Below, in pieces: positions 2,596 through 30,852 of a stretch of DNA of 34,199 bases. The notes under the pieces were generated by a model. That model was not told the origin of the DNA. It was given only the letters and a program-made list of their open reading frames with translations, and did not search any database. The stretch lies in the NCBI GenBank assembly GCA_014376985.1, contig JACMQM010000338.1, positions 1-34,199 of the forward strand. The letters run 5' to 3'. A program made the translations under genes and the position numbers. Source of the DNA: Cytophagaceae bacterium. Lineage in GTDB: Bacteria; Bacteroidota; Bacteroidia; Cytophagales; Cytophagaceae. The first letter of the stretch is position 1, and each line of letters begins with the position of its first letter.

Positions 2596-2672
2596 GATGA
2601 GAAAATAGAAAAGAGAGAGGAGAGAGGAGACTTAAATTCTCATTTCTCATCTCTCTCTTTTCTCATCTCTCC
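2596..2672. repeat. Heptamer-phased inverted repeat, GAGA type, between divergent genes
   Basis: Left arm GATGAGA-AAATAGA-AAAGAGA-GAGGAGA-GAGGAGA (2596-2630); right arm TCTC steps at 2638/2645/2652 and 2654/2661/2668; perfect 13-nt core AGAAAAGAGAGAG (2607-2619) / CTCTCTCTTTTCT (2651-2663). Confidence 0.8.
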
Positions 2673-2685
2673 ACCTACTATTATT

Positions 2686-3477
2686 ATGAATAAGCCCTCT
2701 TTAACCGAAACCCTTGAGTCCTTCGCCAATGTCCTCAAAATAATGGACGAGCTGCGTGAACAATGCCCGTGGGACAAAAAACAAACCATTGACAGCCTTC
2801 GCTATTTAACCATTGAAGAGACCTTTGAGCTTTCTGATGCCATTGTAGAAAAAGACATGGAGGAAATCAAAAAAGAACTTGGGGATATTTTTTTACACCT
2901 GATTTTCTACAGTAGAATCGCATCGGAAACCAATGACTTTACCATCAAGGATGTCATGGACAGTCTGTGCGAAAAGCTGATCCGACGTCATCCCCATATT
3001 TATGGCGACGTGAAAGCGGAAGATGAAGAAGCCGTAAAAAGAAACTGGGAGCAGATCAAACAAACAGAAAAGGGCGGCAACAAAACCATCCTTGCCGGTG
3101 TTCCAAAATCTCTGCCTGCTATGGTCAAAGCCATACGCATTCAGGAAAAAGCAAGAGGTGCTGGTTTTGACTGGGACAATAAAGACCAGGTATGGGATAA
3201 AGTAAAGGAAGAACTGGATGAATTTGAAAAAGAAGCCAATGCCCCTGAAGTCAATAAAGAAAAAATGGAAGATGAACTTGGGGATATTTTTTTCTCTATC
3301 ATCAATTACTCTCGCTTCATTGATATCAATCCCGAAGATGCCTTGGAACGTACCAATAAAAAATTCATCAAGCGTTTTACTTACTTAGAAGAACAAGCTA
3401 AAGCAGTAGGAAAGAAGTTGCACGACATGACGCTGGATGAAATGAATGCGTATTGGGAAGAAGCAAAGCAGAAATAA
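2686..3477 (+). CDS. mazG: Nucleoside triphosphate pyrophosphohydrolase MazG (two MazG domains)
   Basis: LREQCPWDKKQT, EETFELSDAI...ELGDIFLHL and second EELDEFEKE...ELGDIFFSIINYSRF. Confidence 0.95.
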   Translation: MNKPSLTETLESFANVLKIMDELREQCPWDKKQTIDSLRYLTIEETFELSDAIVEKDMEEIKKELGDIFLHLIFYSRIASETNDFTIKDVMDSLCEKLIRRHPHIYGDVKAEDEEAVKRNWEQIKQTEKGGNKTILAGVPKSLPAMVKAIRIQEKARGAGFDWDNKDQVWDKVKEELDEFEKEANAPEVNKEKMEDELGDIFFSIINYSRFIDINPEDALERTNKKFIKRFTYLEEQAKAVGKKLHDMTLDEMNAYWEEAKQK

Positions 3478-3481
3478 AGCA

Positions 3482-3534
3482 AGGAGTGAGGAGGAACGAG
3501 CTAGGACAATCTTTTCTCCTAGCTCATTTCTCCT
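3482..3534. repeat. Heptamer-phased inverted repeat between convergent genes (possible bidirectional terminator)
   Basis: Left AGGAGTG-AGGAGGA-ACGAGCT-AGGACAA (3482-3509); right TTCTCCT-AGCTCAT-TTCTCCT (3514-3534); arms 3489-3506 and 3517-3534 pair at 15 of 18 positions. Confidence 0.75.
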
Positions 3535-4562
3535 TTTTGTTCACTGTATCTTTCCCACTTCTCCAACGCCAATCTAAAATCTTCCGGCAACTCGGACTCA
3601 AACTTCATAAATTTTTTGGTAGTGGGATGGATGAACCCAATGGACTTCGCATGCAGCGCTTGCCTAGGAAGGAGTTCAAAACAATTGTCTACAAATTGTT
3701 TGTACTTCGAAAACACCGTTCCTTTTACAATACGGTCTCCTCCGTAAGTGGCATCATTGAACAAAGGATGACCGATATGTTTCATGTGCACGCGGATCTG
3801 GTGCGTGCGCCCTGTCTCCAGGTTACATTGAATCAGGGAAACGTATTGCAAATCCTTTAATACTTTATAATGGGTCACGGCACGTTTGGCTTGTTCTTCG
3901 TCCTCATACACGGCCATGATCTTGCGATCCCTCATGCTGCGCGCGATCGGCGCATTCACTGTCCCGCTCGGAGGATTAGGAACTCCCCAGGCAATGGCAT
4001 AATACGTACGTTCAATGCTGTGGTCAAAAAACTGTTTACCCAGAAAACTCATGGCATATTCCGTTTTGCCAATCACTAATAAACCGGATGTATCTTTATC
4101 GATACGATGCACCAAGCCCGGACGAATTTCTCCGTTAGAGGAAGGTAAATTATTCAAATGGTACGATAAGGCATTCACCAAAGTACCTGTCCAGTTGCCA
4201 TGCGCAGGGTGTACGACCATGCCCGCAGGCTTATTGACGATTAGTAATTCCTCGTCTTCGTAAATAATATTCAGCGGAATATTTTCTGGAACGACAACAT
4301 CTTCTCTCGGAGGATGTGGCAGAGAAACAATAATGACATCACCCGGTTTGACCTTATAGCTTGGCTTTACTCCATGGTCATTGACTTTCAGCGTTTCCGC
4401 ATGAATGGCATTTTGCAATTTATTGCGCGTGGCATTCTGAATCCGATCCATCAAAAACTTATCGATGCGGATCATGCTTTGCCCTTTGTCTACCACAATG
4501 CGGTGGTGTTCAAACAACTCAACATCGTCTTCAAAATCCGGTATTTCCTCGGAGGTACTCAT
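3519..4562 (-). CDS. RluA/RluD family pseudouridine synthase with S4 domain
   Basis: S4-like RIDKFLMDRI N-terminus, GLVHRIDKDTSGLLVIGKT catalytic motif, LETGRTHQIRVHMKHIGHPLFND. Confidence 0.94.
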   Translation of the reverse strand: MSTSEEIPDFEDDVELFEHHRIVVDKGQSMIRIDKFLMDRIQNATRNKLQNAIHAETLKVNDHGVKPSYKVKPGDVIIVSLPHPPREDVVVPENIPLNIIYEDEELLIVNKPAGMVVHPAHGNWTGTLVNALSYHLNNLPSSNGEIRPGLVHRIDKDTSGLLVIGKTEYAMSFLGKQFFDHSIERTYYAIAWGVPNPPSGTVNAPIARSMRDRKIMAVYEDEEQAKRAVTHYKVLKDLQYVSLIQCNLETGRTHQIRVHMKHIGHPLFNDATYGGDRIVKGTVFSKYKQFVDNCFELLPRQALHAKSIGFIHPTTKKFMKFESELPEDFRLALEKWERYSEQKGEMS

Positions 4563-4594
4563 TTACTCTTTTTCCATGGCAATATAAGGAAAAA

Positions 4595-4718
4595 TGGTGA
4601 GCGGTGAACAGTGAAGAGTGAGAGTACATACAATTCTCTATTTTAATAATATTGCTATCTTGCAGTAAACCGTTGCGAAGAGCAAACTGCTCACCGTTCA
4701 CTCTTCACTACTCACCAA
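4595..4718. repeat. Heptamer-phased inverted repeat, GTGA type, between divergent genes
   Basis: GTGA at 4597, 4604, 4611, 4618 (exact 7-nt steps); TCAC at 4691, 4698, 4705, 4712 (exact 7-nt steps). Confidence 0.9.
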
Positions 4719-4719
4719 A

Positions 4720-5643
4720 ATGTTGCTCCAAAGCCATACTCTTCCTCCAATAAACATTACCAAGCTTAACCATCCGCTAACTGACAACTTATACCTCGCC
4801 CGGCTGGATCTCTTACCTTATCCAGCAGGAGGCAATAAATGGTTCAAACTGAAATACAATTTGTTAGAAGCGGAGCGATTGGGTATCAAACAAATCATTA
4901 CGTTTGGCGGAGCTTATTCCAATCACTTATATGCGACTGCGGAAGCAGCGGATTATTGGGGTTTTAAAAGCATTGGAATTGTAAGGGGGGAAGAACATTT
5001 TTCTTTGAACGATACGCTTCAACACTGCGTCAATAAAAGCATGCAACTTTTTTATATGTCTCGGGAAGAATACCGTAGAAAAAGCGAACCAGAGTTTATA
5101 CAACGTTGGATGTACGAACAAGGAATTCCAAACGGATATATGATTCCAGAAGGAGGCAGCAATACATTGGCGGTGAAAGGCATGCAGGAACTGATTGACC
5201 TGCTCCCCTCCGATACAGACATTATCGCTACGGCTTGCGGCACAGGCGCTACCATGGCCGGATTGATTGCGGGTGCAAAAACTCATCAGGAAGTCTGGGG
5301 GTTTCCCGGGCTAAAGGGAGCTGATTTTTTGGTCAACGATATCCAATCGCTACTTTCTGAATGTCACAATGTATCCGATAAAAAGTGGAGGCTTCTACTA
5401 GATTATCACCTGGGTGGTTATGCTAAATTACCGGACGAACTTTTGTCTTTTATACATCGATTTAAAAAAGAACAAGGCATTACCTTAGATCCCACTTACA
5501 CCAGCAAATTGCTTTTCGGATTATTTGATTTGGCGGATAAAAATCTGCTTCCTAAGGATAAAAAAATCGTTGCACTCCACACAGGAGGACTACAAGCCTG
5601 GGGTGGATTACCGGAAAAAAAACGTATATTTCTCTCTGAATAA
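4720..5643 (+). CDS. 1-aminocyclopropane-1-carboxylate deaminase / D-cysteine desulfhydrase family PLP enzyme
   Basis: PAGGNKWFKLKYNL PLP lysine, TFGGAYSNHLYATA, ACGTGATMAGLI, LHTGGLQAWGG. Confidence 0.9.
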   Translation: MLLQSHTLPPINITKLNHPLTDNLYLARLDLLPYPAGGNKWFKLKYNLLEAERLGIKQIITFGGAYSNHLYATAEAADYWGFKSIGIVRGEEHFSLNDTLQHCVNKSMQLFYMSREEYRRKSEPEFIQRWMYEQGIPNGYMIPEGGSNTLAVKGMQELIDLLPSDTDIIATACGTGATMAGLIAGAKTHQEVWGFPGLKGADFLVNDIQSLLSECHNVSDKKWRLLLDYHLGGYAKLPDELLSFIHRFKKEQGITLDPTYTSKLLFGLFDLADKNLLPKDKKIVALHTGGLQAWGGLPEKKRIFLSE

Positions 5644-5653
5644 AAAATCGACA

Positions 5654-7021
5654 ATGTCTGTAAAATCATACATCGAATCCAACAAAGACAGATTCCTGGA
5701 AGAGCTGAAAGAGCTCTTGCGCATTCCTTCTGTAAGCGCCGACAATCAATACAAAGCAGATGTATTGCGTGCCGCTGAAAAAGTAAAAGAGTTTTTATTA
5801 CAGGCAGGTGCAGACAGCGCCCAATTATATCCTACCGCCGGTCATCCGATTGTGTATGGAGAACAACTCATCGATCCCGCTTTACCTACCGTTTTGGTTT
5901 ACGGACATTACGATGTACAACCGGCTGATCCGCTTAATTTATGGGACAGCCCACCTTTTGAACCGGTCATCAAAGACGGTAAGATATTTGCTCGCGGCGC
6001 AAGCGATGACAAAGGTCAGATGTTCATGCACATCAAAGCGCTCGAAACATTAAACCAACAAGGTAAATTACCTTGTAATTTAAAATTCCTAATTGAAGGA
6101 GAAGAAGAAGTAGGTAGCAATAACTTAGAGCAGTTTCTAAAAGACCAAAAGGAATTATTGAAAGCAGACATCATCCTCATTTCAGATACCGGTATTTTAT
6201 CCAATGAAAATCCATCTATCACAACGGGATTGAGAGGATTGAGTTATTTGGAAATAGAAGTCACAGGCCCTTCAAGAGATCTTCACTCCGGTATGTACGG
6301 TGGAGCAGTGGCTAATCCTATACAGGTATTAGCACAGATGATTACTTCATTGAAAGATGAAAACAATCACATTACCATTCCCGGATTCTACGACGATGTG
6401 CAGGAAGCTTCTGTGGAAGAACGTCAGCGCATGAGCGAAGCGCCTTTTGATTTGGAAGCTTACAAAGCATCTTTAAAATTAAAAGACGTCTCCGGAGAAA
6501 AAGGATACAGTACGTTAGAACGTGTGAGCATAAGACCAAGCTTAGATGTCAACGGCATCTGGGGCGGTTACACCGGAGAAGGTGCGAAGACGGTGTTGCC
6601 ATCTAAAGCATTCGCGAAACTGTCTATGCGTTTGGTACCTAATCAATCTTCAGAACAAATCACGCAATTGTTCAGCGACCATTTCAAACGCATTGCTCCG
6701 GCTTCGGTAGAGGTAATCGTTAAACCTCATCATGGTGGAGAACCGGCGCTTACATCCCTGACTTCAGACGGATACAAAGCAGCAGAAAAAGCATTTGAAA
6801 CTGTTTGGAACAAAAGACCGATTCCCATGCGTGAGGGAGGAAGTATTCCGATTGTGAGTTTGTTTAAAAAAGAGCTGGGTCTGGATACCGTATTGTTAGG
6901 CTTTGGGTTACACAGCGATGCCATTCACTCGCCCAATGAAAACTACCATTTATTCAACTTCTTTATGGGTATCGAAACCATTTGTGAGTTCCATAAACAA
7001 TATGTTCGGTTGAAAAAATAA
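5654..7021 (+). CDS. M20 family dipeptidase/metallopeptidase
   Basis: VYGHYDVQPADPLNLWDSPPFEP, GRGASDDKGQ-like ARGASDDKGQ, EGEEEVGS; ORF opens at 5525 but homology-like start MSVKSYIESNKDRFLEEL is at 5654, 10 bp after the upstream stop. Confidence 0.95.
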   Translation: MSVKSYIESNKDRFLEELKELLRIPSVSADNQYKADVLRAAEKVKEFLLQAGADSAQLYPTAGHPIVYGEQLIDPALPTVLVYGHYDVQPADPLNLWDSPPFEPVIKDGKIFARGASDDKGQMFMHIKALETLNQQGKLPCNLKFLIEGEEEVGSNNLEQFLKDQKELLKADIILISDTGILSNENPSITTGLRGLSYLEIEVTGPSRDLHSGMYGGAVANPIQVLAQMITSLKDENNHITIPGFYDDVQEASVEERQRMSEAPFDLEAYKASLKLKDVSGEKGYSTLERVSIRPSLDVNGIWGGYTGEGAKTVLPSKAFAKLSMRLVPNQSSEQITQLFSDHFKRIAPASVEVIVKPHHGGEPALTSLTSDGYKAAEKAFETVWNKRPIPMREGGSIPIVSLFKKELGLDTVLLGFGLHSDAIHSPNENYHLFNFFMGIETICEFHKQYVRLKK

Positions 7022-7029
7022 ACTATTTA

Positions 7030-7045
7030 TAACAGTCCACTGTTA
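7030..7045. repeat. Short perfect dyad TAACAGT-CC-ACTGTTA upstream of dsbD
   Basis: 7-bp arms, 2-nt spacer, read directly. Confidence 0.5.
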
Positions 7046-9183: not shown

Positions 9184-9186
9184 AAA

Positions 9187-9260
9187 TTAGTGATAAATGG
9201 TAAGTGAGAAGTAGAAATGCTTGTGACTTACACTTACAGCTTACCACTTATCGCTTACAA
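9187..9260. repeat. Heptamer-phased inverted repeat, TAAGTG type
   Basis: Left TTAGTGA-TAAATGG-TAAGTGA-GAAGTAG (9187-9214); right CTTA at 9227, 9233, 9240, 9247, 9254 (last three steps exactly 7). Confidence 0.8.
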
Positions 9261-9267
9261 CTGCTTC

Positions 9268-10197
9268 ATGAAATTAAACATCCTCAAACACGAAACGCTC
9301 CACACCATCCCCTCCGGCTCCGGCATTGAATTGGTCAATGGGATCATCTATATCATCGGTGACGACAGTGAAGTTTTATATGGATTGAATCATGAATTAA
9401 GAGTGATTCATCAGGTAGAATTGTTTAAAGCAGCAGAAAAAAAAGGCGGTAGAATTCCCAAACCATTGAAAGCAGATTTTGAAAGCATGGTGTCCTTTGA
9501 CATCAATGGTTATCCGCATTTGTTTGTTGCCGGTTCCGGTTCTGTGCTGCCACAAAGAGGCATGGGGTATTTGGTAAAGCTCCCTACTTCTTACAGTAAA
9601 AAACACATGGTATGGGAGAAAGACCTTAACAGTTTATACCGACTCATTACCAGTCATCCCGATTTCGAAAGTCCTGAGCTCAATATTGAAGCCTCTTTCA
9701 TCGCCAAGGATCATTTCTATTTCATCAACAGAGCCGGCGAACAATTGATTCGTTACCCGCTTCCGGAAATGATTGAGTTTTTACAAGGACATACGGAAAG
9801 CACTCCTTTTCCAGAAATTTTCTTACTCGAGCTTCCTGCTGTAAATGATCTGACGTTCGCTTGTTCCGGTGCTTGTTATTTCAATGACACGGTATACATC
9901 ACTGCTTCTTGTGAAGACACGGACAACGCTTATGATGACGGTGAAATTTTAGGTTCCGCTATTGGGACCTTTTCTTTGGATGCTTTGCCAGAAAGAGGAA
10001 GAGAAAAAAACGCATCGAATAAAATCAAAGTAGATAACATGACACTCATTCTTGGAAAAGATTCAACGTCTATGATCTCTAAATGGGAATCCATTTGCAT
10101 CTACGAACAAGATAAAGACGGCACACTGGCTGCGCTGGCTGTTGCCGATCCTGACGATGGAACTTCGGAATTGTTTTTATTGGAAATTAATTTGTAG
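9268..10197 (+). CDS. Conserved hypothetical protein, probably beta-propeller-like
   Basis: Start chosen at 9268 (MKLNILKHETLHTIPSGSGIELVNGIIYIIGDDSEVLYGLN) because 9217-9267 of the ORF is the heptamer repeat; repeated GIELVNGIIYIIGDD-type strands. Confidence 0.75.
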   Translation: MKLNILKHETLHTIPSGSGIELVNGIIYIIGDDSEVLYGLNHELRVIHQVELFKAAEKKGGRIPKPLKADFESMVSFDINGYPHLFVAGSGSVLPQRGMGYLVKLPTSYSKKHMVWEKDLNSLYRLITSHPDFESPELNIEASFIAKDHFYFINRAGEQLIRYPLPEMIEFLQGHTESTPFPEIFLLELPAVNDLTFACSGACYFNDTVYITASCEDTDNAYDDGEILGSAIGTFSLDALPERGREKNASNKIKVDNMTLILGKDSTSMISKWESICIYEQDKDGTLAALAVADPDDGTSELFLLEINL

Positions 10198-10224
10198 TTG
10201 TTGGTTGTTGGTTGTTGGTTGAGG
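10197..10224 (+). repeat. Tandem heptamer GTTGTTG x3 plus GTTGAGG
   Basis: GTTGTTG at 10197, 10204, 10211; GTTGAGG at 10218; starts at the last base of the upstream stop codon. Confidence 0.85.
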
Positions 10225-10228: not shown

Positions 10229-10250
10229 GGCGCAAGTTTTAACTTGTGCC
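10229..10250. repeat. Hairpin GGCGCAAGTT-TT-AACTTGTGCC
   Basis: 10-bp stem with one G.T pair, 2-nt centre. Confidence 0.65.
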
Positions 10251-10325
10251 TAAAGTCACATAGAGCATTTGCTCGGGGAATTGATAAACTAAACGGATGA
10301 ATTTTATACTATTCGTTTCTTTAAT

Positions 10326-10419
10326 TGGGTGTCAGGTCTTTCGACCTGACAATGATGGGATAAAACACGATCTTCTTTACTAAACACATGCCGTGTCACG
10401 CCGAAATACCTGACACTCA
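10326..10419. repeat. REPIN-like 94-bp element, copy 1
   Basis: TGGGTGTCAGGTC-TTTC-GACCTGACA left hairpin; right end ACCTGACACTCA is inverted left end (11/12). Confidence 0.75.
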
Positions 10420-10439
10420 TAAAAATTTATAACCATACC

Positions 10440-11900
10440 ATGCGCCTAATCCTCTGTCTTATTTCTTGTCTTGCTTATCAAGTAAATGCACAGGTCACCC
10501 TTTTCCAATTTCAGCAAGCGCCCTTTAAAGAAGCACCTTACAGCCCCTCCAATCAAGAGCTGATTCTTTCAGAAGAATTTGAATACTACACCTTGTTCAA
10601 AGAAGGAGATTCTGTCTACACCAGCAATGGACAAGTAAGTCCCTCGAAAAGCAATCACGATTATATTGTTTTCCTGCCGGGATGTTCTGCCAAAAAAGCT
10701 TCGCTCTTTGTTTCTCACGAATGCAACGATACCAGCAGCGTATTGGGTGATGGAGGTGGAGGCACTATTTTCACTATCCGTAAAAAAGATTACGAGTGGA
10801 AACGCACCGGACAATTTGAAGCCGTAGATTTTAGTTCTGTAGGCGGTACGTATGACAATTGCGGTGGCATTTACCTTGCAAAAACAAAACAGATTCTTTC
10901 CGCAGAAGAATTTCCTCCGGAAAACAATACTAAATTGCACAAGGAAGGAAAAGGTTTCCAGGACACTTCTGATTTCAACGGCTTGAAGCGCTACGAAAAC
11001 ATGGGATGGATGGTCGCCATAGATGCGACTTCCAAAAGCGCCGTGAAGAAATTATATGCCCTGGGTCGTTTCTCTCATGAATCAGGCTGGCTCAGCAAAG
11101 ATGGGAAATCGCTTTATATGACAGATGACCATGCACCATCTGTTTTTTTTAAATTCGTAGCAAAAACTCCTTATATTTTTGATAAAGGAACCCTTTACGC
11201 TTACGATCAATACAACACCACTAATCATTGGATTGCTTTACCCGGAGTCATGGACTCCTTAGTCATCATACGAGACATCGCTTTGCGGAAAGGAGCTACT
11301 GTGTTCGCGCGAATGGAATGGATGACAGGAATCGATGATAAGCTCTTCATCACAGAAACAGGGACAATTCCTATGTCTTTGGCAACACATGATTTACAAA
11401 AGAAAAATTTTGCCCAACATCTTCAAGGCAAAATACAGAACGATACCTTAATTTACCCTGAGGGTGCGCTGTTGGCTTTCGATTTAAAAACAGAAGAATT
11501 AAAAGTCAGACTAGCCGGAGGAAGAGGTTCAAAAGACACCACAAAATATTTTTCTAACCCTGATGCCTTGACAGCTTTCAAAAGCAACGGCAGAACATGG
11601 CTCATCATCTGTGAAGACCAAATTAAAGAGCCACACGACGGCAACGAAGTCTGGTGGCTCGACGCCGGTATCCAAAACCCCAGAGTCGATAGTTTGTATA
11701 GATTTCTTGTGGCGCCAACCAAAGCAGAACCTACCGGAGTCTGCTTAAGCAATGACAGAAAAACACTTTTTTTGAATATTCAGCATCCTTTCGGGGAAAA
11801 TACGCCACCCTTCAATAGGAGTTGCACCATCGCCATCCGTTCCCGAAGTTGGAAAGCGACTTACAAAGGAGGAAAGGGAGTGAATGTTTCTTTCTGGTAA
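10440..11900 (+). CDS. DUF839 / PhoX-like secreted protein
   Basis: Signal peptide; GGTYDNCGGIYLAKTKQILSAEE, HESGWLSKDGKSLYMTDDHAPSVFFKFVA, PEGALLAFDLKT, ISNPDALTA-like region typical of DUF839. Confidence 0.82.
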   Translation: MRLILCLISCLAYQVNAQVTLFQFQQAPFKEAPYSPSNQELILSEEFEYYTLFKEGDSVYTSNGQVSPSKSNHDYIVFLPGCSAKKASLFVSHECNDTSSVLGDGGGGTIFTIRKKDYEWKRTGQFEAVDFSSVGGTYDNCGGIYLAKTKQILSAEEFPPENNTKLHKEGKGFQDTSDFNGLKRYENMGWMVAIDATSKSAVKKLYALGRFSHESGWLSKDGKSLYMTDDHAPSVFFKFVAKTPYIFDKGTLYAYDQYNTTNHWIALPGVMDSLVIIRDIALRKGATVFARMEWMTGIDDKLFITETGTIPMSLATHDLQKKNFAQHLQGKIQNDTLIYPEGALLAFDLKTEELKVRLAGGRGSKDTTKYFSNPDALTAFKSNGRTWLIICEDQIKEPHDGNEVWWLDAGIQNPRVDSLYRFLVAPTKAEPTGVCLSNDRKTLFLNIQHPFGENTPPFNRSCTIAIRSRSWKATYKGGKGVNVSFW

Positions 11901-15396: not shown

Positions 15397-15490
15397 TGGG
15401 TGTCAGGTCTTTCGACCTGACACTGCCGGACCATAGTAATGACGATTCGTTTTCATAAATACAGTATCAGGTTGAAAAACCTGATACCCA
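15397..15490. repeat. REPIN-like 94-bp element, copy 2
   Basis: Left hairpin TGTCAGGTC-TTTC-GACCTGACA (15401-15422); right hairpin GTATCAGGTT-GAAA-AACCTGATAC (15464-15487) then CCA; same 94-bp length as copy 1. Confidence 0.8.
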
Positions 15491-15502: not shown

Positions 15503-17254
15503 ATGAATAAAAATCCATCGAAAAAAAACAAAGTCACCATTGGTAAAGCTTTTAAAACCATCATCTGGCCAAGAAGAAATTTAATTGCACTAGGTCTTCT
15601 ACTGATCATCATCAGTCGTTTAGCAAGTTTGGTTTTACCATGGGAAAGTAAAATACTTATCGACGAAATCATTCCCAATCAAGATAAGGATGGGTTAAAT
15701 GTTTTGCTGTTAAAAGTAGGCGGGGCTATAACGCTTCAAGCGCTCAGTGCTTTTTTACTCACACGTTTATTAAGCGTAGAAGCACAATTATTAATTTCCA
15801 AACTACGTGTACAAGTACAAAGAAAAATACTTTCTTTACCCATCAGTTATTTCGACAATAATAAGTCCGGGGCTCTAGTATCCCGTATTATGAGTGATGT
15901 AGAAGGTATAAGAAACTTAATCGGTACAGGTTTAGTGCAACTCGTAGGAGGAACATTAACAGCTATTTTATCTTTATACTTTCTGATTAAGATCAGTCCG
16001 TTGATGACCTTGTACGTTTTTTTACCCGTATCCATATTTGCTTTTATCGCGATGAAAGCCTTTGGATATATCCGTCCTATCTTCAAAAATCGCAGTGTCA
16101 TCAATGCTGAAGTCACGGGGAGACTAACAGAAACATTGAATGGTGTGCGCGTGATTAAGGGTTTTAATGCCGAGCATCAGGAAAACAATATTTTCAAAAA
16201 AGGTGCGGAACGCTTATTTGAGAATGTTAAAAAGAGTTTGACCTCTACGGCCATACTCACCAGTTCTTCTACGTTTCTTCTGGGTATGGCGACTCTAGGC
16301 ATCATAGGTATCAGTGGATATAAAATGATTGATCACCACATGAGCTTAGGGGACTTCTTATCCTTCACTATGTTTTTAGGGTTTATGATTGCACCCATTG
16401 TACAAATGAGTGATATCGGTAGTCAAATGACAGAAGCGTTTGCTGGTCTGGATCGCACGGAGGAAATCATGAACATGGATCCTGAAGACGATGCAGCTGT
16501 TAGAACTATAGAACTGAAAGAAATCAGCGGTAATATTATATTTGACAATGTTTCTTTCGCTTACCAGGAAGGAAAAGAAGTCTTGCACAATGTCAGTTTC
16601 AATGCCTCCTCAGGCTCTGTGACTGCGCTCGTAGGAACATCCGGTTCCGGTAAATCCACCATTGCCGGATTGGTGGCTACTTTTTTAAATCCTGATTCCG
16701 GTTTGATTACATTAGACGGTATCGATTTATCCAAAGTAAGTTTGACCAGCTACCGTCAACATTTAGGTGTGGTATTGCAAGATGATTTCTTGTTCGAAGG
16801 AACCATTCGCGAAAACATTTTATTCCCAAGACCCAACGCTACGGAAGAACAATTGCTTGCTGCGGTGAAGGCAGCTTACGTCAATGAATTTACCGATCGT
16901 TTCGAAGAAGGTTTAGAAACAGTGATCGGAGAACGAGGCGTTAAGCTTTCCGGAGGACAACGTCAGCGCATTGCTATTGCCCGTGCCATTTTAGCAGATC
17001 CAAAAATCATCATCCTGGATGAAGCAACATCTAATCTGGATACAGAAAGTGAATCGTTGATTCAAAAAAGTTTGGCAGAGTTGATGAAAGGAAGAACAAC
17101 CTTTGTTATTGCTCACCGCTTGAGCACGATTCGCCAGGCCTCGCAGATATTAGTGATTGAAAGTGGCCGAATACAAGAACAAGGTAAACACGAAGAGCTG
17201 ATTGAAAAGAAAGGCCGTTACTTTGAATTGTATACTTATCAGGCGAGAATATAA
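15503..17254 (+). CDS. ABC transporter, fused permease/ATP-binding exporter type
   Basis: Six-TM-like N-terminus, Walker A GTSGSGKST, LSGGQRQR signature, Walker B IIILDEATSNLD, H-loop AHRLST. Confidence 0.95.
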   Translation: MNKNPSKKNKVTIGKAFKTIIWPRRNLIALGLLLIIISRLASLVLPWESKILIDEIIPNQDKDGLNVLLLKVGGAITLQALSAFLLTRLLSVEAQLLISKLRVQVQRKILSLPISYFDNNKSGALVSRIMSDVEGIRNLIGTGLVQLVGGTLTAILSLYFLIKISPLMTLYVFLPVSIFAFIAMKAFGYIRPIFKNRSVINAEVTGRLTETLNGVRVIKGFNAEHQENNIFKKGAERLFENVKKSLTSTAILTSSSTFLLGMATLGIIGISGYKMIDHHMSLGDFLSFTMFLGFMIAPIVQMSDIGSQMTEAFAGLDRTEEIMNMDPEDDAAVRTIELKEISGNIIFDNVSFAYQEGKEVLHNVSFNASSGSVTALVGTSGSGKSTIAGLVATFLNPDSGLITLDGIDLSKVSLTSYRQHLGVVLQDDFLFEGTIRENILFPRPNATEEQLLAAVKAAYVNEFTDRFEEGLETVIGERGVKLSGGQRQRIAIARAILADPKIIILDEATSNLDTESESLIQKSLAELMKGRTTFVIAHRLSTIRQASQILVIESGRIQEQGKHEELIEKKGRYFELYTYQARI

Positions 17255-17315
17255 GAAAAGAGAAATGGGAGATGAGAAATGTATATGTTTTCTCCTTTCT
17301 CTTTTCTCCTCTCTT
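17254..17315. repeat. Heptamer-phased inverted repeat, AGAAANG type, between convergent genes
   Basis: Left AGAAAAG-AGAAATG-GGAGATG-AGAAATG (17254-17281); right TTTTCTC-CTTTCTC-TTTTCTC-CTCTCTT (17288-17315), all exact 7-nt steps. Confidence 0.9.
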
Positions 17316-17316
17316 G

Positions 17317-18228
17317 TTACTTACTTCTCAGTGCAAATCGAAACAACTTATGTGGTGTACCAATATACAAGGTATTCCCTTCGATACATAAATTATTGAC
17401 GATAGCAGGAATTTTAATCATCCCCAGTTTTATTCCTGCTGAGGAAAAAATCCGAACACCGGTTTCTGTAGCGAGAAAAACATTTCCGCGCTTATCCGTT
17501 TTTATTCCATCAGCATTTTCTGAAATAAAAATTTCACCGTTTTTAAATTTTCCATCTTCCAGTTCGTAACGCTTAATCATTTTCTCTTCCGAAAAACTAG
17601 AACTCACATAGACGTAACGACAGTCTGGAGAAAAACAAAGTCCGTTAGGATAAGTAAAATCGGAGGATACTAATTCTAATGTGTCGTTGAACCAACGGTA
17701 TATCCCTGCTATAGGCTGCGCTGCATCGGGATTAAGCTTTTGAGGAGATAATCCGTAGGGAGGGTCTGTAAAATAAATACTTCCATCAGGAGCTACTATC
17801 AAATCATTAGGACTGTTCAATCGTCTCCCTTGAAAACTATCCACAATTTTTTCAATGACACCTTCTTTATTCAATCTAACAATGGCGTGGTTACCGTGTT
17901 GACAAAAAACAAAATTTCCGTGCAAGTCATAGGCAATACCATTAGAGCCCACATGATTGGAATCTAATGAGGTAGGTAAACCATTCAATCCACTTTCATG
18001 CAAAAACACTTCTGTTCCTTGCTGCTTGCTGTGTTTGTAAATTTTATTTCTTACCAGATCACTGAAAATAAGATAGCCGCCTTTATGCCATAACAGTCCT
18101 TCTATGAAACCAAAGTCTGACGCCATGAGCACAGGATTGGCGGACATCCTCAGGATATGTGCTATATCCGGATGATACACCTCAATAGATTTACTCCAAG
18201 CCAACTCCATCAATAACTTCCCGTTCAT
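17317..18228 (-). CDS. SMP-30/gluconolactonase/LRE family protein
   Basis: EGLLWHKGGYLIFSDLVRNKIYK, GSNGIAYDLHGNFVFCQHG, LNSPNDLIVAPDGSIYFTDPPYGL. Confidence 0.92.
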   Translation of the reverse strand: MNGKLLMELAWSKSIEVYHPDIAHILRMSANPVLMASDFGFIEGLLWHKGGYLIFSDLVRNKIYKHSKQQGTEVFLHESGLNGLPTSLDSNHVGSNGIAYDLHGNFVFCQHGNHAIVRLNKEGVIEKIVDSFQGRRLNSPNDLIVAPDGSIYFTDPPYGLSPQKLNPDAAQPIAGIYRWFNDTLELVSSDFTYPNGLCFSPDCRYVYVSSSFSEEKMIKRYELEDGKFKNGEIFISENADGIKTDKRGNVFLATETGVRIFSSAGIKLGMIKIPAIVNNLCIEGNTLYIGTPHKLFRFALRSK

Positions 18229-24615: not shown

Positions 24616-24748
24616 CTATGATCACGCTTATGAACAGTCAATGCTTTCTGTAAACTCTTAGATGAACGATGTATTGAGCAACTGAACTATCATGTTTCGC
24701 AGATGTATACAATACCAAGATGTGTTAGAAAAATATGCCAATTAGAAA

Positions 24749-26386
24749 TCAACGCTTGATGTATAAGTTTCCTTTGTAAGTCTGCTCACCATACTTTATA
24801 AAATAGTAATAAGTGCCAACTGGTAAATTTCCTCCATCCCAGTCGTTGCGGTAATTTTCCTGATGGTATACAATTTGATGCACAGCGTTAAAAACAGATA
24901 CCTCATTCTGAACAGAAGGATCCAGATTCTCGATATAAAATGTTTCATTATCACCGTCTCCGTTTGGAGTAATGAGTTCGTAAATGACAGGTTTTCCGTA
25001 TACTAAATTATTAATAATTTCAGATAGCTCACTGATTAAACAACTACCTTCCTTTACTCGCATTCTATAGGTTCCGAATTCAGCAGATGTAAAAGGAGAA
25101 ACCGTGATAGAAGCGGTATCGAACAACTGACCATTTGGTGTAGCCCATTGATAACTCAGATGCGTACTAAATGGAACAGAGAGGTGCAGATCTTTACCTT
25201 CACCTGGTTGTAATTCCCTTGTAACTTCTAAGGTAGGTAATGGATAATAAGGAGAAACTGTAAGTTGAAGATACAAGGTATCTGCCCTATATATAGTATC
25301 TGCCGGCGCAGTAACTCGTAATGGCAACATGCCTGGTTTACGCAGATTAACGCTTTTATCAGGATTGATGGTAGCTACTGTGGTATCTAACGAAACGATG
25401 GATACACCTCTTCCCGCTGTGCCTGTAGTAAGCGCTTCTAAAAAATTATTGAACGGACAATAAATTATTGTGCTACTTAAATAAATAATTGTTTGAGCAA
25501 CAAGCGCTTTAACATTCAACCCAATGTAGCCTGATCTTAGTACCAGTCCTGGAAATATAGGATTCGCCATTTCGCAAAAGTAAAGCCGGCTGTCCGATAC
25601 TTGACCGCTTTCAATACGCATCATGGATTGATTGGTGTTTATTAGTCTTGGAGAATCGGGGAGATAAGAAGTATCATTCCATTGCCATTTCCATTGGTAA
25701 AAATTATTGGAATCACCACCCGCCAATGGTGCAACATCAGGAAAATTAATAGAGTCTCCTTCATGCACTACAAAATACCGGTACGGCAGCATGGGTTGCT
25801 GTGGACTATAGCTGTATGTATTCAAAGGTTTACTAAGCAAAGGAGCCAAGTCGTCAAAATTAAAATGGTTATCTCCTACATATAAATTTTTAAAGTTAGG
25901 GCTCGGTATCGACATGAAATCCGGCATCTCCGTCATTTCATTATAATAGATACTGATCAGTTCTATATTTGTCAATTTACTAAAATCAGCTCCTGCTTCA
26001 ACTCCGGTCAACGCATTACCGGTTAAATACAATGTCCTTAAAGAAGACAGCTCCACCATGCATTTTGGTACTGGACCTATCAATAGGCAGCCAGATAAAT
26101 TAAGAAAAAGGAGTGAATCAAGCGCACATATTTCAATGGGAATAGTGTCATTAATAAGTACATCCAAATCTAATGAAATGACTCTGTTATCCTGCACCTG
26201 TATTCCATGCCATGTAGATACATTACCATTCAGCCACGTGGTATCGCTGGCTAATGCAGGTATCTTATTGTACAGGGCCACTAAAGCTAATGAATCCTGT
26301 TTGATTACCTGAGCTGTTGCTTTTGGAAAACAGATCATGAGAGAAACGCTAAAAAAAATACACCGAATGAAATGCTTTGTGCGCAT
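24749..26386 (-). CDS. Secreted LRR/Ig-like protein with gliding-motility-associated C-terminal (T9SS type B) domain
   Basis: LRR-like N-terminus (LLFLNLSGCLLIGPVPKCMVELSSLRTLYLTGNALTG); C-terminus ITPNGDGDNETFYIENLD...NDWDGGNLPVGTYYYFIKYGEQTYKGNLYIKR. Confidence 0.9.
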   Translation of the reverse strand: MRTKHFIRCIFFSVSLMICFPKATAQVIKQDSLALVALYNKIPALASDTTWLNGNVSTWHGIQVQDNRVISLDLDVLINDTIPIEICALDSLLFLNLSGCLLIGPVPKCMVELSSLRTLYLTGNALTGVEAGADFSKLTNIELISIYYNEMTEMPDFMSIPSPNFKNLYVGDNHFNFDDLAPLLSKPLNTYSYSPQQPMLPYRYFVVHEGDSINFPDVAPLAGGDSNNFYQWKWQWNDTSYLPDSPRLINTNQSMMRIESGQVSDSRLYFCEMANPIFPGLVLRSGYIGLNVKALVAQTIIYLSSTIIYCPFNNFLEALTTGTAGRGVSIVSLDTTVATINPDKSVNLRKPGMLPLRVTAPADTIYRADTLYLQLTVSPYYPLPTLEVTRELQPGEGKDLHLSVPFSTHLSYQWATPNGQLFDTASITVSPFTSAEFGTYRMRVKEGSCLISELSEIINNLVYGKPVIYELITPNGDGDNETFYIENLDPSVQNEVSVFNAVHQIVYHQENYRNDWDGGNLPVGTYYYFIKYGEQTYKGNLYIKR

Positions 26387-26601
26387 GAGTAATAGTCTAC
26401 AACAACAAATATAAAATCAATTTCTCTAAATTAGTAATATTAGATGAACGCTAAAAACAGGTTGTATTAAATTCTAAGTGAATATCCAAATAAAAAGTAT
26501 AGCAGCTAATTCTCTACAGCCCCTCTATTGATATAAGGTACAGTTAAATATACTTAGATACTTTGTGAAAAAATATTCACAATTACGTAGTATATAAAAA
26601 T

Positions 26602-26632
26602 TTACTTTGTAAAGTTAAAAATTACCTTGTAA
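26602..26632. promoter_or_regulatory. Two direct-repeated dyads TTAC-N3-GTAA, 20 bp apart
   Basis: TTACTTTGTAA at 26602-26612 and TTACCTTGTAA at 26622-26632 in the divergent intergenic region. Confidence 0.4.
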
Positions 26633-26883
26633 ATACATAAACAAAATAAATAAAAGTTAAAAGTGCTGTGGATAAATGCCTTAAGAGGTTGGTTCAAAAC
26701 CGATTTAAGCCGTTTTTCGAATTTCTTCTTATTTAATTTTTCACTTTCGTTTTTATTATGAAATTATCAATTTAGCGATTATTGAAGTATTTTCTTTATG
26801 AATGATTAAGAATGCTTCATTTTAAAATGTACACGTAAAGGAAATATTAAAGAAGAACTTAGGAAGCTAAAAAAGTATTTCTA

Positions 26884-26906
26884 ACCCATCGGAATGGGTA
26901 ATTTTT
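26884..26906 (+). terminator. Terminator-like hairpin with no annotated upstream gene
   Basis: ACCCAT-CGGA-ATGGGT followed by AATTTTTT. Confidence 0.5.
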
Positions 26907-26973
26907 TCATGTTTGTGTTTTATTCTTACATTTCCAAAAACCGATCGGCTTCACTTTTGGCTTCTACGAACTC

Positions 26974-27000
26974 TTGATTATTGTTTTAAAATTACCTTTG
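26974..27000 (+). promoter_or_regulatory. Bacteroidetes-type promoter TTG-N16-TACCTTTG
   Basis: TTG 26974-26976, TACCTTTG 26993-27000 (exact TAnnTTTG), about 135 nt upstream of the ATG at 27136. Confidence 0.5.
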
Positions 27001-27135
27001 CCTCAATTTATCTTACCGTTCCCTCGATCCTTCTTTGGTATGGAAAATCAAAGGCTTAAGTTCGAAACATTGTTTGATGCGAATTAAACACTTCTCAATA
27101 AACACACTAACTGTTTACAAAACTTGATTTTTAAC

Positions 27136-29703
27136 ATGAAACCAAAATTTAACTTACTGGTGCTTATTTTTTTCTTTATAAGTATCCATGCTATCGCGCA
27201 AAAGCCGGTATTGAACATTCCCGTCAAAGCCTATGTAGAACTTACATCGGCAAATTACTTCGGTGGCAAGCTGGCCATACAGGATTCGATTACGAAACAG
27301 TTTCAACGCATGAATCAATATTATAATGCGGAAACACGCTTTACACACACCTATAATTTTTACATCAGCTCTTTCCAATTTTATACAGACAATGGCAACA
27401 ACGACAGCACCAACTATTACAATGGGTTAGTCACCGGTTTCTTAAAAATTGTCTACGATAATTTTGTTCCTTTTGACATGAAAGGCTATAACTCTTACCT
27501 GCATACCATTCACTATTGTCACGACGGAGTAAACGGCAAAAGCGGTCACATGTTCGGCCGCATTCCAAACAAAGGATTGTTCCATGAATTCGGTCATTCC
27601 AGAAGTGCCATTGACATTTACGCAGTAAATATAGACGGCTCACAAAATCAGGTCGCTACCGGACTGGGTTTCAGAACTCCTTATAATTCCATTATGAATG
27701 ATCTGTATGTAGAATCAGGATGGGACACGCATTCCATCTACCTTATGAATACGACAGCGACTACTTATGGCGTAGGTCCGTTTACAGGCGCTCAGCACGA
27801 TGCCATTGTCAAAGGCGCCTTTCCGCAAAACATTAGCATCAGGGTAAAAGACGCCACGGGAAATGCCGTGCCGAATGCCACTGTAAAATTGTATGGTGTC
27901 ACTTGGTACATGAGCAATGACTTCGCTCAGAAACTTACTACTGCCAATGCCGCAGTAAACACGACGACCAATACAAGTGGCATTTTAAACTTTACCAGCA
28001 CCAATAATCCGTTTAATACTGCCTTCACCGGAGAAGCGCCTACACAATACATTAGTTTCTTTGTCGCGGTGACTGCCAACGGACAAACACGCTATGACTG
28101 GCTGACTATTTACGATGTCCAAAGCAGTAAAGCAGCCGGATTGACTACACATTACCTGGATGTGGTGATAAAAACAGCCACCCTTGCCGCGCCTAACAAA
28201 AAACCGCTGGCTGACCTTGCAGTGACCGGAGATGGGCAGTACAGGACTTTTCCTTCCAATATCTGGCTGGTGACCGGTGCCTTTGATCTTGATAACGCGA
28301 TAACGAGCGTAAAAATGTACGATGGTAGTACACTGCTTGGCAACGCAAATTTTGAACCGGATGCCTTTCGCTATGCCTACCAATTGCTCAATCTCCCGGT
28401 AGGCACCCACAGCATCAAAGCAGTAGTTACCGATGCCTCAGGCAGCGTTGCCGAAACGCTTCCTATTTTGATGACCATCGTTCCTCCTGCTCCATCAGTG
28501 TCTCTTACCGCTCCGCTGGATAACAGCAGTTTCTTTTACGGAACAGCCATCACACTGAACGCTTCGGCGGCAGCAGGGTCTGGAACCAATACAAAAGTAG
28601 AATTTTACAACGGCAACATAAAATTGGGTGAAGACGCGACTTCTCCTTACAGTTACAACTGGACCAATGCGCCTTTGGGTACAACGCAAATTAGCGCAAG
28701 AGCTTACAACAGTGCAGGATTTTCGGCCGTTGCCAATGCTTTAAAAATTACTGTGAACCCCGCCAATACCTGCACAGATCCGGTATGGAACAGCGGCACT
28801 GCTTATGTAAACGGTGACAAAGTTTCTTACCTGGAAAAAAAATACCAGGCCAACTGGTGGACGCAAAACAATCCTCCAAACACCAATAGCGGTGCGGGTA
28901 TGGCGTGGACAGACTTAGGCAACTGCGGATCAAGCGGCAATGCAGCCCCTACGGTTTCCCTCACCGCCCCGTCCAATAACCAAAGCTATACCGCTCCTGC
29001 CACGGTAAACATCACAGCCAATGCGGCAGACAGCGACGGATCCATTTCCAAGGTGGAATTCTACAACGGATTATCCCTGATCTTTTCCGATAACACTTCT
29101 CCTTACACTTATTCCTGGACCAGTGTTGCCATCGGCACCTACGTACTCAAAGCCATTGCTTACGACAACCTGTTAAATACCACGACTTCATCTGTCGTCA
29201 CCATTACGGTATCAGCAGGAGGCACTTGCACAGCCGTGCAATGGAACGCGGGCAATGCTTCTTATATCAACGGTACAATCATTAAAAACACCGTAGGCGG
29301 TATAGTGAAAAGATACCAATGCACCGTAGCCGGCTGGTGTCAGTCTGCGTCTGCCTATTACTACGAACCGGGAAACGGAACAGCCTGGACTTCCTGCTGG
29401 AATGATTTGGGGTCCTGCACATCCAGGTCTGCTGCCGACCACAACGCCACCGAAACAATAGCTTTTGAAATCTATCCGAACCCGGCAAATCATCGCGCAA
29501 CGATCACTGCGGCATTGACAGGAACGCTTGTGACCCTTTATCTCATCAATCAAATGGGCACAGAAATCCTAACCAAAGAAATAAACGTCGGAAGCACCGG
29601 TCTTACAGATGAATTGGATCTTAGTGGACTTATGCCGGGTATCTATACCCTAAAACTCAGCGCAGGTGAAACCGTTCTTTACAAACGATTGCTTAAGAAT
29701 TAA
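27136..29703 (+). CDS. Secreted multidomain protein: putative zincin (HEFGH), bacterial Ig-like domains, chitin-binding-like module, T9SS type A sorting domain
   Basis: Signal peptide; GLFHEFGHSRSAIDIY; two PxVSLTAPxN...KVEFYNG Ig-like domains; PVWNSGTAYVNGDKVSYLEKKYQANWWTQNNPP CBM5/12-like; C-terminus FEIYPNPANH...GIYTLKLSAGETVLYKRLLKN. Confidence 0.85.
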   Translation: MKPKFNLLVLIFFFISIHAIAQKPVLNIPVKAYVELTSANYFGGKLAIQDSITKQFQRMNQYYNAETRFTHTYNFYISSFQFYTDNGNNDSTNYYNGLVTGFLKIVYDNFVPFDMKGYNSYLHTIHYCHDGVNGKSGHMFGRIPNKGLFHEFGHSRSAIDIYAVNIDGSQNQVATGLGFRTPYNSIMNDLYVESGWDTHSIYLMNTTATTYGVGPFTGAQHDAIVKGAFPQNISIRVKDATGNAVPNATVKLYGVTWYMSNDFAQKLTTANAAVNTTTNTSGILNFTSTNNPFNTAFTGEAPTQYISFFVAVTANGQTRYDWLTIYDVQSSKAAGLTTHYLDVVIKTATLAAPNKKPLADLAVTGDGQYRTFPSNIWLVTGAFDLDNAITSVKMYDGSTLLGNANFEPDAFRYAYQLLNLPVGTHSIKAVVTDASGSVAETLPILMTIVPPAPSVSLTAPLDNSSFFYGTAITLNASAAAGSGTNTKVEFYNGNIKLGEDATSPYSYNWTNAPLGTTQISARAYNSAGFSAVANALKITVNPANTCTDPVWNSGTAYVNGDKVSYLEKKYQANWWTQNNPPNTNSGAGMAWTDLGNCGSSGNAAPTVSLTAPSNNQSYTAPATVNITANAADSDGSISKVEFYNGLSLIFSDNTSPYTYSWTSVAIGTYVLKAIAYDNLLNTTTSSVVTITVSAGGTCTAVQWNAGNASYINGTIIKNTVGGIVKRYQCTVAGWCQSASAYYYEPGNGTAWTSCWNDLGSCTSRSAADHNATETIAFEIYPNPANHRATITAALTGTLVTLYLINQMGTEILTKEINVGSTGLTDELDLSGLMPGIYTLKLSAGETVLYKRLLKN

Positions 29704-29707
29704 TCGA

Positions 29708-30045
29708 TAGAATTAGTGCTTTAGTTCGACTTTCCAATATTTAAAACCAGAATTACAAGCTCTCGTATACAAGCTGATATACCTCTAAGACTGAGTGCAG
29801 TGGGTGTCCAGGAAAAGAGCGAATGGAAGAAGACCCTGTCTAGCATTAACAACGTGCTGTTTGAAGGATCCGTTGGGTCTTCTTTCATTGGTTTTGGTGG
29901 CGCCCTTTTCTTTTGTTTCTTTTCTTTTGGGCGAGCAAAAGAAAAGAAAGAGGACAGGATGAAAATGGAATTCATTATTAAACTCGTCCGAGAGGGGAAC
30001 ACTACCCTCTTTAGTAATTGAAGGCGAATTAAATCACTAATTCTA
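29708..30045. mobile_element. MITE-like element, 338 bp, imperfect 25-bp TIRs, 8-bp target duplication TTAATCGA
   Basis: Left TIR TAGAATTAGTGCTTTAGTTCGACTT (29708-29732), right TIR reverse complement TAGAATTAGTGATTTAATTCGCCTT (30021-30045), 22/25; TTAATCGA at 29700-29707 and 30046-30053. Confidence 0.85.
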
Positions 30046-30065
30046 TTAATCGAAAAAGCACTTAA

Positions 30066-30100
30066 TAAAAAACTCCAGCTTTAACGGGCCGGAGTTTTTT
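30066..30100 (+). terminator. Intrinsic terminator
   Basis: AAAAACTCC (30068-30076) ... GGAGTTTTTT (30091-30100). Confidence 0.85.
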
Positions 30101-30247
30101 ATTAACAATTTCTTTTACTCACTTAAGTATTCACTACACTATTTAACTCTATGATTTCAATGCCGATCCTCTCCAATCTATTATTGTTTCTGCGCTATGC
30201 CTTTTCATTTTAAAAAGTTGCGGTTAAAATTAAAAGTAAAACTTGAG

Positions 30248-30364
30248 CGGTCTTAAGCAATTAGGAAGGAGGGGATTTTGCCTGTAAATAAAACAAGTAA
30301 TTTTATTAAACTAATGTAATGCAGGTTATGCTTCCCTAACAAAAAATGTTTAAACTTAAGACCG
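30248..30364. repeat. Nested inverted repeats, 117 bp
   Basis: CGGTCTTAAG (30248-30257)/CTTAAGACCG (30355-30364) perfect; inner TTAGGAAG (30261-30268)/CTTCCCTAA (30331-30339). Confidence 0.55.
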
Positions 30365-30416
30365 TCTCTTAATCATGTTTTCAAAATCTAGCATCCTCTC
30401 ATACTATTCATTACAC

Positions 30417-30773
30417 TTATTTCATTTTGGAGCTGCAGACAATCTCGTCAAAACCTACCGCCACCACTTTATCCTTCTTCTCCACCACCGGCCTTTTGAT
30501 GATACTCGTATTCGTTAGCATCACAGCGATCGCCGCTTTTTCATTCGTCACCGAAGCTTGTGTTTTTTCGTCGAGTTTTCTCCAAGTCGTGCCTTTCTTG
30601 TTGAGTAATACTTCCCAACCCACCTGATCAGACCAGGCTTTCAACTTACTTTCTGTAATGCTTTGAGTTTTATAATCGTGAAAGTCAAAAGCGATCTTAT
30701 GTGTTGTAAGCCAAGTCAGGGCTTTCTTTACGGTGTCGCAATTTTTGATGCCGTAAACAGTGAGGTTGGACAT
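30417..30773 (-). CDS. ArsC/Spx family protein (YffB-like)
   Basis: LTVYGIKNCDTVKKALTWL, SIIKRPVVEKKDKVVAVGFDE. Confidence 0.92.
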   Translation of the reverse strand: MSNLTVYGIKNCDTVKKALTWLTTHKIAFDFHDYKTQSITESKLKAWSDQVGWEVLLNKKGTTWRKLDEKTQASVTNEKAAIAVMLTNTSIIKRPVVEKKDKVVAVGFDEIVCSSKMK

Positions 30774-30782
30774 ATTGAAAAG

Positions 30783-30852
30783 GTAATGGTGAAGAGTAAA
30801 GGGTGAGCAGTGAAGAGTAAACCGTAAATCTTACTTACTATTCACTCTTCAC
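30783..30852. repeat. Heptamer-phased inverted repeat, GTRA type
   Basis: GTGA/GTAA at 30789, 30796, 30803, 30810, 30817, 30824 (six exact 7-nt steps); TYAC at 30835, 30842, 30849. Confidence 0.92.

Follow-up and report, generated by a model that had tools for sequence, protein, structure and literature searches.

Mirrored heptanucleotide arrays of several motif families in intergenic gaps of a Cytophagaceae bacterium and three congeners

Intergenic repeats of 7-mers have been on record for decades, and those known as STRR in heterocystous cyanobacteria are tandem arrays of a heptanucleotide unit. Most of the degenerate GGGANTN heptamers of Xanthomonas are intergenic; they number in the hundreds per genome, with 70 to 75 convergent inverted pairs per genome; the G-rich strand is the coding one just past stop codons, which the repeats often overlap, and the noncoding one just ahead of start codons, divergent gaps are under-represented, and the sites are common to species, with sequence and length varying (PMC4692102). 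The authors of that study discuss quadruplexes and found no regulatory role (PMC4692102). TAACTGA direct repeats are known from Beggiatoaceae, cyanobacteria, and a few Bacteroidetes, and the same paper mentions “other heptamer direct repeats” in gaps of Gramella and Aequorivita (PMC4679880). Finally, the P6b stem of the Nostoc trnL group I intron contains degenerate 7-nucleotide (nt) repeats in both strands, of class I (TDNGATT) or class II (NNTGAGT), and has shifted repeatedly between the motif classes with pairing kept (PMC4476775). Here, arrays with the same 7-nt step are analyzed in a 34,199-nt contig of a Cytophagaceae bacterium of the phylum Bacteroidota (JACMQM010000338.1, hereafter the window) and in three congeneric genomes. 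Tandem 7-nt arrays stand at the edges of intergenic gaps, and about half of them have an inverted counterpart from their own heptamer family in the same gap.

The mirrored heptamer architecture is already known from Xanthomonas. The preliminary description of the window, made from the sequence alone, knew of no equivalent and is superseded on this point: the Xanthomonas GGGAATC heptamers form convergent inverted pairs and follow the same positional rule (PMC4692102). What is new here is the presence of several families per genome, most of them without G-runs, and the joint change of both arms at conserved sites; a literature search, with most subscription journals outside its reach, found no description of such multifamily joint arm change. 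Like the TAACTGA repeats, the present arrays are intergenic, abut start and stop codons, and have the C-type orientation ahead of starts, but TAACTGA repeats consist of a single motif and are almost exclusively direct, with one inverted case in the best-studied genome. The P6b stem also has arms of 7-nt units that change motif class without loss of pairing and so works alike, without the present arrays being members of it: P6b is one site in a self-splicing intron with an RNA structure to conserve, whereas the present arrays occupy dozens of sites between genes, with no intron involved.

The source genome (G000), which belongs to an uncultured genus, is a metagenome assembly of 3.88 Mb in 389 contigs, 94% complete, of which the window is contig C193. 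The MazG protein encoded in the window is 92 to 96% identical to MazG of three Bacteroidota assemblies (loci L062, L063, and L064), which are the congeners G003, G002, and G001, respectively; aligned DNA of the four species is ∼80 to 88% identical at the compared loci. The analysis as a whole covers these four species through contigs of metagenome-assembled genomes, with crude gene calls, rough motif families, and several tests run on overlapping samples. Seven sites with a 7-nt step, six of them with mirrored arms, had been described in the window, and their coordinates hold. A lag of 7 was the best of lags 4 to 11 at all seven sites (each P = 0.001, 1,000 dinucleotide shuffles), an inverted repeat was present at six of the seven (P ≤ 0.003, dinucleotide shuffles), and Tandem Repeats Finder reported period 7 at 5/7. 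The arm limits in the shuffle test were 2595-2633/2635-2673, 3489-3509/3514-3534, 4595-4622/4690-4717, 9187-9204/9240-9257, 17251-17279/17289-17317, and 30803-30820/30835-30852, with the one-armed site at 10197-10221. The full arms, with family letters as defined below, are as follows.

2595-2633, plus strand: 5′ purine-rich arm of NNNGAGA heptamers upstream of mazG, in the divergent gap between phosphoglucomutase (minus) and MazG (plus)
2635-2673, minus strand: 3′ arm paired with 2595-2633, NNNGAGA family read on the minus strand
3482-3509, plus strand: 5′ arm, family F (GAGTGAG GAGGAAC GAGCTAG), 4 nt past the MazG stop in a convergent gap
3514-3534, minus strand: 3′ arm, family F, partly decayed, providing the RluD stop codon (3519-3521)
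4595-4622, plus strand: 5′ arm, family A (GTGAGCG GTGAACA GTGAAGA GTGAGAG), in the divergent gap between RluD and a PALP enzyme
4690-4717, minus strand: 3′ arm, family A, in the same divergent gap
9187-9218, plus strand: 5′ arm, family G (TAAGTGR), directly past the stop of a DsbD-like gene in a codirectional gap
9226-9262, minus strand: 3′ arm, family G, ending 4 nt ahead of the likely DUF6929 start codon (9266)
10195-10221, plus strand: one-armed GTTGTTG array starting on the TAG stop of the DUF6929 gene, without an inverted partner (inverted repeat P = 0.97)
17251-17279, plus strand: 5′ arm of AGAAANG/GAGATGA type, overlapping the stop of an ABC transporter gene in a convergent gap
17289-17317, minus strand: 3′ arm paired with 17251-17279, reaching the stop of an SMP-30-like gene
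30783-30820, plus strand: 5′ arm, family A (GTGAAGA GTAAAGG GTGAGCA GTGAAGA), in the codirectional (minus) gap between ArsC and an amino acid permease
30835-30852, minus strand: 3′ arm, family A, in the same codirectional gap

The intergenic excess at lag 7 extends beyond the window, as the preliminary reading required. The samples comprised approximately 0.6 to 0.7 Mb from each of G000, G002, and G003 and 0.28 Mb from G001, gaps were defined by simple calls of open reading frames (ORFs), and a score of ≥12 was the threshold for a lag-7 array; samples of G000 and G002 that had been chosen by a GTGA motif were excluded from the array rates. Lag-7 arrays were found in 10/91 gaps of the unselected G000 sample (0.7 expected), 7/137 gaps in G001, 20/147 in G002, and 35/147 in G003 (26/177 in a later sample). 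Lags 3 to 6, 8 to 13, and 15 were at or near expectation, so that a clear intergenic excess is mainly seen at 7 and its multiple 14, and coding sequence showed no rise at lag 7. Among 77 other Bacteroidota loci, 32 of 714 gaps carried such arrays against 5.3 expected (30/712 without masked sequence). The arrays are thus concentrated between genes, as are the GGGAATC and GGGGA(C/T)T repeats of Xanthomonas and Nostoc (PMC4692102). In a 300-kb sample of plasmid A of Trichormus variabilis, 7 of 164 gaps had a lag-7 array (0.3 expected), one of them mirrored; the STRR-like placement of heptanucleotide arrays between genes is shared, but mirrored pairs are rare in that sample, unlike here. A mirrored heptamer pair of the GTCAGGA type, with the G-arm first as in the present genomes, lies at 43054-43145 of this plasmid (L227).

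An inverted copy of a gap's strongest array was found elsewhere in the same gap in 63 of 135 cases and in 24 of 56 in later samples (87/191 in total), whereas direct copies numbered 3/135 and 4/56 (7/191). Shuffled remainders of the gaps yielded 1 and 0 inverted copies, and arrays tried on other gaps matched in ∼9%. When the two arms were called independently, they matched in 41/42 gaps (33% between gaps) and, in later samples, in 14/14 (50% between gaps); the claim that both arms of a gap share one motif in complementary form thus stands in 55 of 56 gaps. As in the Xanthomonas and Nostoc repeats, the pairs are convergent with the G-rich strand first: the G-richer arm was on the left and the C-richer one on the right in 42 + 14 gaps and the order was reversed in 1 + 2 (56 versus 3), and the G-rich strand came first in 88/92 elements. 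The median arm is 29 nt and the median loop 18 nt, with a maximum loop of 186 nt.

Most arrays abut a stop codon, and their G-richer strand points out of the gene. Arms had been described as hugging both stops and starts, which is accurate for stops (median distance −2 nt, n = 90), whereas starts are further off (median 30 nt, n = 42). Oriented by the nearest gene, arrays at stops were G-type in 71 cases and C-type in 18, and arrays ahead of starts were C-type in 35 and G-type in 5; the 77 other Bacteroidota loci have the same polarity (13 versus 1 at stops and 8 versus 3 at starts). Some ORF ends run into the arms. For example, the RluD gene of the window (3519-4562, minus strand) terminates on the TAG of a GAGCTAG unit; in G002, a TAA stands just ahead of the arm, a stop that the window RluD has lost, gaining four residues (GEMS; window 3519-3540). 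A listed ORF start at 9217 falls between two arms, and the likely start is 9266. The genes that adjoin the window gaps are ordinary housekeeping ones, for phosphoglucomutase, MazG, an RluD-type pseudouridine synthase, a pyridoxal phosphate enzyme, DsbD-like and DUF6929 proteins, an ABC transporter, an SMP-30-like protein, an ArsC-like protein, and an amino acid permease. An Rfam scan of the window gave no family at the gathering score, and a tRNA scan of the window found none.

Arms had also been reported at convergent, divergent, and codirectional junctions alike. Over the larger samples, this equality disappears: arrays occupy 38/137 convergent, 52/396 codirectional, and 8/166 divergent gaps, where the G002 stretches counted sit on contigs first met through the GTGA motif. 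The avoidance of divergent gaps and the placement of the G-rich strand, coding past stops and noncoding ahead of starts, are again shared with the Xanthomonas and Nostoc repeats. In codirectional gaps of the four genomes, a terminator-like hairpin was present in 4/56 with arms and in 77/323 without, as if arms were common inside operons. The order of gap types and the T-rich 3′ flank of the arms (43% T) are what would be seen if the arms were themselves the stem of a bidirectional transcription terminator serving convergent genes. This explanation is disfavored and highly improbable: an ordinary terminator-like hairpin is equally frequent in convergent gaps with (24/43) and without arms (49/88; 56% each), the arms often flank that hairpin, and arms are also present in divergent gaps, such as those at window positions 2595 and 4595.

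Approximately eight heptamer families recur across many loci: A (GTGA-RNR), B (GTTRTTA), C (CTGARAA), D (GTKRTCA), E (CTGARAT with GAGATGA), F (GAGCNAG/GAGGNAC), G (GTKRTAA), and H (GTSGTTA/GACGTTA). They fall into three loose groups, namely, B, D, G, and H; C, E, and F; and A. The motif had been described as specific to each locus; it does vary among loci, but it is drawn from these recurring families rather than being unique. The GTGA motif alone has 103 matches in the source genome, and this type is common in both G000 and G002, whereas G003 has few matches, G001 has none, and 55 more distant genomes have almost none; the family mix thus differs among species. In families A, E, and F of all four species, the units share a frame, GAGXNAX′, in which positions 4 and 7 are complementary in 71/76 units (forms GAGCNAG, GAGGNAC, GAGTNAA, and GAGANAT), a frame that was picked post hoc and amounts to only about four family-level observations. 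A possible intermediate between families was found in G002 (L260 8370), with a 5′ arm of family D (GTGGTCA) and a 3′ arm of family H (GTGGTTA), one family-defining position apart.

The mixture of fixed and free positions within a family (e.g., GTGA-R-N-R) would suit an array of binding sites with a regulatory function, in which the heptamer is recognized by a DNA- or RNA-binding protein (cold-shock, RRM, or ribbon-helix-helix) or folds into a G-quadruplex. Binding of cold-shock proteins to TAACTGA has been proposed for Beggiatoaceae (PMC4679880), and G-quadruplexes have been put forward for the Xanthomonas GGGAATC repeats (PMC4692102). Nevertheless, binding is a quite unlikely account of the present arrays, whose motif differs among loci and is not constant even between orthologues, more variation than a single protein would tolerate. 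In addition, the Xanthomonas and Nostoc repeats have one quadruplex-capable motif per genome, whereas most of the approximately eight families here lack GGG runs; the sequences listed for families B, C, D, E, G, and H contain none and still obey the same positional rule as quadruplex-forming families, so that quadruplexes cannot be the general reason for it.

Orthologous gaps tend to stay occupied between species, and the motif either drifts inside the loose groups or is replaced. Both the source genome and G002 had arms in 8 gaps, one of the two in 2 + 2, and neither in 30 (P = 1.5e−5); for G002 and G003, the numbers were 6, 0 + 0, and 11 (P = 8e−5), and for the source genome and G003, P was 0.016. 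A comparison of such gaps, to see whether motifs change while period and pairing persist, had been proposed beforehand, and this is the pattern seen across the species. For example, the gap upstream of mazG carries GAGA-type arms in the source genome, GAGATGA in G002, CTGAGAA in G003, and none in G001, and the gap after dsbD has families G, B, B, and D across the four species. Motifs of orthologous gaps were related at 14 of 19 loci (74% versus 29%, permutation P = 1e−4); 19 independent loci is a lower bound, given that loci with identical B arrays were in some cases merged when clustered by shared 20-mers, and one of the 19 (L273 17870/L223 12614, T-rich) probably does not have true heptamer arms. 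At the remaining 5/19 loci, a family F member faces a C or E member. In G001 (L064 10840-11920), mazG and rluD are separated by a gene judged by eye to be acyltransferase-like, whereas heptamer arms are all that stands there in the other species.

In convergent gaps, an inner terminator may stay conserved while both flanking arms switch family. Thus, G002 L146 7399 and L054 333 of the source genome have a common inner terminator, AAAGCCTGCTAGA(A)ATCTAGCAGGCTTT, between arms of different families, and the same holds for G003 L168 5756 and L210 8796 of the source genome, with the terminator GAAAGCC(T/C)TTGTTAA...TTAACAA(A/G)GGCTTTC; in two further orthologous pairs, the position of the terminator was kept and its sequence changed. 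These gaps bear on the proposal that a mobile element (a miniature inverted-repeat transposable element, a REPIN, or another) inserts as a hairpin unit with heptamer ends. The recurrence of families at many loci and the numerous RAYT-kind Y1 transposases (11, 8, and 8 in the array-rich genomes and 3 in the array-poor G001) would fit such an element, and the arrays resemble REP/REPIN sequences with RAYT in being intergenic, inverted, present in many copies, and G-tagged in orientation. However, terminators that persist while the arms around them belong to different families cannot result from one-piece insertion, target-site duplications are lacking (mean longest match, 2.97 versus 3.03 at random), the loops are nonhomologous, and RAYT genes are flanked by other palindromes and not by heptamers on both sides (20 Y1_Tnp/RAYT loci read). 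Unlike the arrays, the REPs of this genus are palindromes of their own that adjoin their RAYTs, often situated in the loop between heptamer arms. Insertion of a mobile element is therefore disfavored and very doubtful, mobilization by RAYT/REP included, and the earlier view that transposition of one sequence fits poorly is borne out by the missing duplications and the retained terminators.

Other palindromic sequences accompany the arrays. REP-like palindromes (GGCGCAAGTTTTAACTTGTGCC..TAGAGCATTTGCTCGGG; GGTGTCAGGTCTTTCGACCTGACA) occur in the window at 10229-10280, 15399-15425, and 10400-10480 and are likewise found on the flanks of RAYT-type Y1 transposase genes at other loci of the genus (L237, L239, L240, L247, L252, and L253); several RAYT/REP systems with different palindromes co-occur in each genome. 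A nested palindromic element, CCCCTAAATCCCCTGAAGGGGACTT...AAGTCCCCTTCAGGGGATTTAGGGG, is present in the orthologues of window gap 4563-4719 in L062, L063, and L064, as well as at L205 9564, and is missing from the window gap itself.

At 11 of 11 loci, the arms of one gap were more similar to each other than to the orthologous arm (P = 0.001); two of these (GAGTATAGAG; AAAAGGAAAA) probably do not have true heptamer arms, and nine have clear ones. At the nine well-defined loci, both arms have changed jointly, twice around a clearly conserved terminator. Within-gap likeness above orthologue likeness typically signals concerted evolution, although it is inflated here because paired arms were chosen, and it agrees with the initial suggestion that some process, or selection, maintains the resemblance of the arms. 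After the mechanism tests, two readings survive, namely, slippage in 7-nt steps with homogenization of the inverted arms and selection for pairing of any sequence. The explanation favored here, tentatively and at slightly below an even chance, is that these are paired intergenic heptanucleotide arrays, inherited in place and evolving in concert by slippage and homogenization between inverted arms. Replication slippage would grow and shrink the arrays in 7-nt steps, a variant from one arm would be carried into its inverted partner by conversion or a short template switch, and slippage would then scramble the order of units. Arrays next to stop codons would be tolerated, since little there is damaged and since the units of most families each carry a stop codon, with three units closing all frames because 7 is not a multiple of 3. 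On this account, the arms would need no function.

The unit order in the two arms is weakly mirrored (identity of 0.879 versus 0.851 after unit permutation; n = 32, P = 0.01), as measured on pure arrays, given that inner terminators drive the signal when included, and arm lengths within a gap are uncorrelated (rho = −0.21). Both are as expected if slippage scrambles the arrays after copying. In Escherichia coli, template switching is an established cause of growing likeness between inverted arms (PMC7202029), and it has been proposed for natural RNA stems (PMC8794818). For the present arrays, we infer the copying between arms from such patterns, and several points weigh against it. No single copying event was caught, the four species being too distant for single events to be seen, and the weak register equally fits arms that merely share a family. 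As noted, comparing within and between gaps selects paired arms and inflates the former. Slippage and template switching leave unexplained the spread of the same eight families over many loci and the complete replacement of the motif at a few (in the 19-locus set, all C/E versus F; elsewhere, one B/A case), and neither accounts for the fixed polarity. No relation, modulo 7 or of any other kind, was seen between the symmetry axes of the arms and the inner hairpin, which excludes the simplest geometry, a snap-back nucleated at the terminator hairpin, and this form of the originally suggested snap-back switching is dropped. Loop inversion between orthologues, a sign of arm-arm recombination, was sought and gave no signal.

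Selection for a long stem, with complementarity kept because an intercistronic or 3′-end RNA stem or a DNA cruciform is useful and any pairing heptamer suffices, is plausible but rather unlikely. It would account for matching arms in 55 of the 56 gaps despite changing motifs, the Nostoc trnL P6b stem is a precedent for motif replacement with the stem retained (PMC4476775), and the scarcity of terminators in arm-bearing codirectional gaps (4/56 versus 77/323) means that many arms may lie within transcripts. Conversely, G-U pairs relative to A-C are not enriched past composition (50:28 within gaps, 350:218 between), arm lengths are uncorrelated, loops reach 186 nt, and many arrays are partnerless. 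A G-U excess in codirectional stems was apparent at first and was gone when set against between-gap pairing. Slippage with homogenization is preferred over selected pairing because neither arm lengths nor wobble pairs bear the marks of stems under selection. More speculative, and unlikely, is a replication- or repair-linked process, not yet described and present in several phyla, that would lay 7-nt arrays outward from stop codons, keep inverted pairs identical across up to ∼180 nt, and replace the motif in both arms while a core, such as a terminator, stays; the heptamer length would then be the footprint of the machinery and its sequence immaterial. Short tandem units with free positions also resemble templated addition, as by a telomerase-like or other reverse transcriptase that writes heptamers. 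This idea is disfavored to the point of being barely credible, within the limits of incomplete assemblies: RVT_1 was not found in G001, G002, and G003 (88 to 92% complete), even though G002 and G003 are array-rich.

In contrast to the link with quadruplexes drawn in Xanthomonas, the same positional and pairing rules apply here to motifs without G-runs in another phylum, so that the rule is tied to the 7-nt step and to the mirrored layout and not to one motif. The matched change of motif in both arms is a new twist that needs an explanation. Orthologous gaps in four species make it answerable why the step is 7 and whether the arms are kept alike by mutation or by selection, and these gaps also lend themselves, as a natural system, to measurements of how often inverted repeats switch templates.

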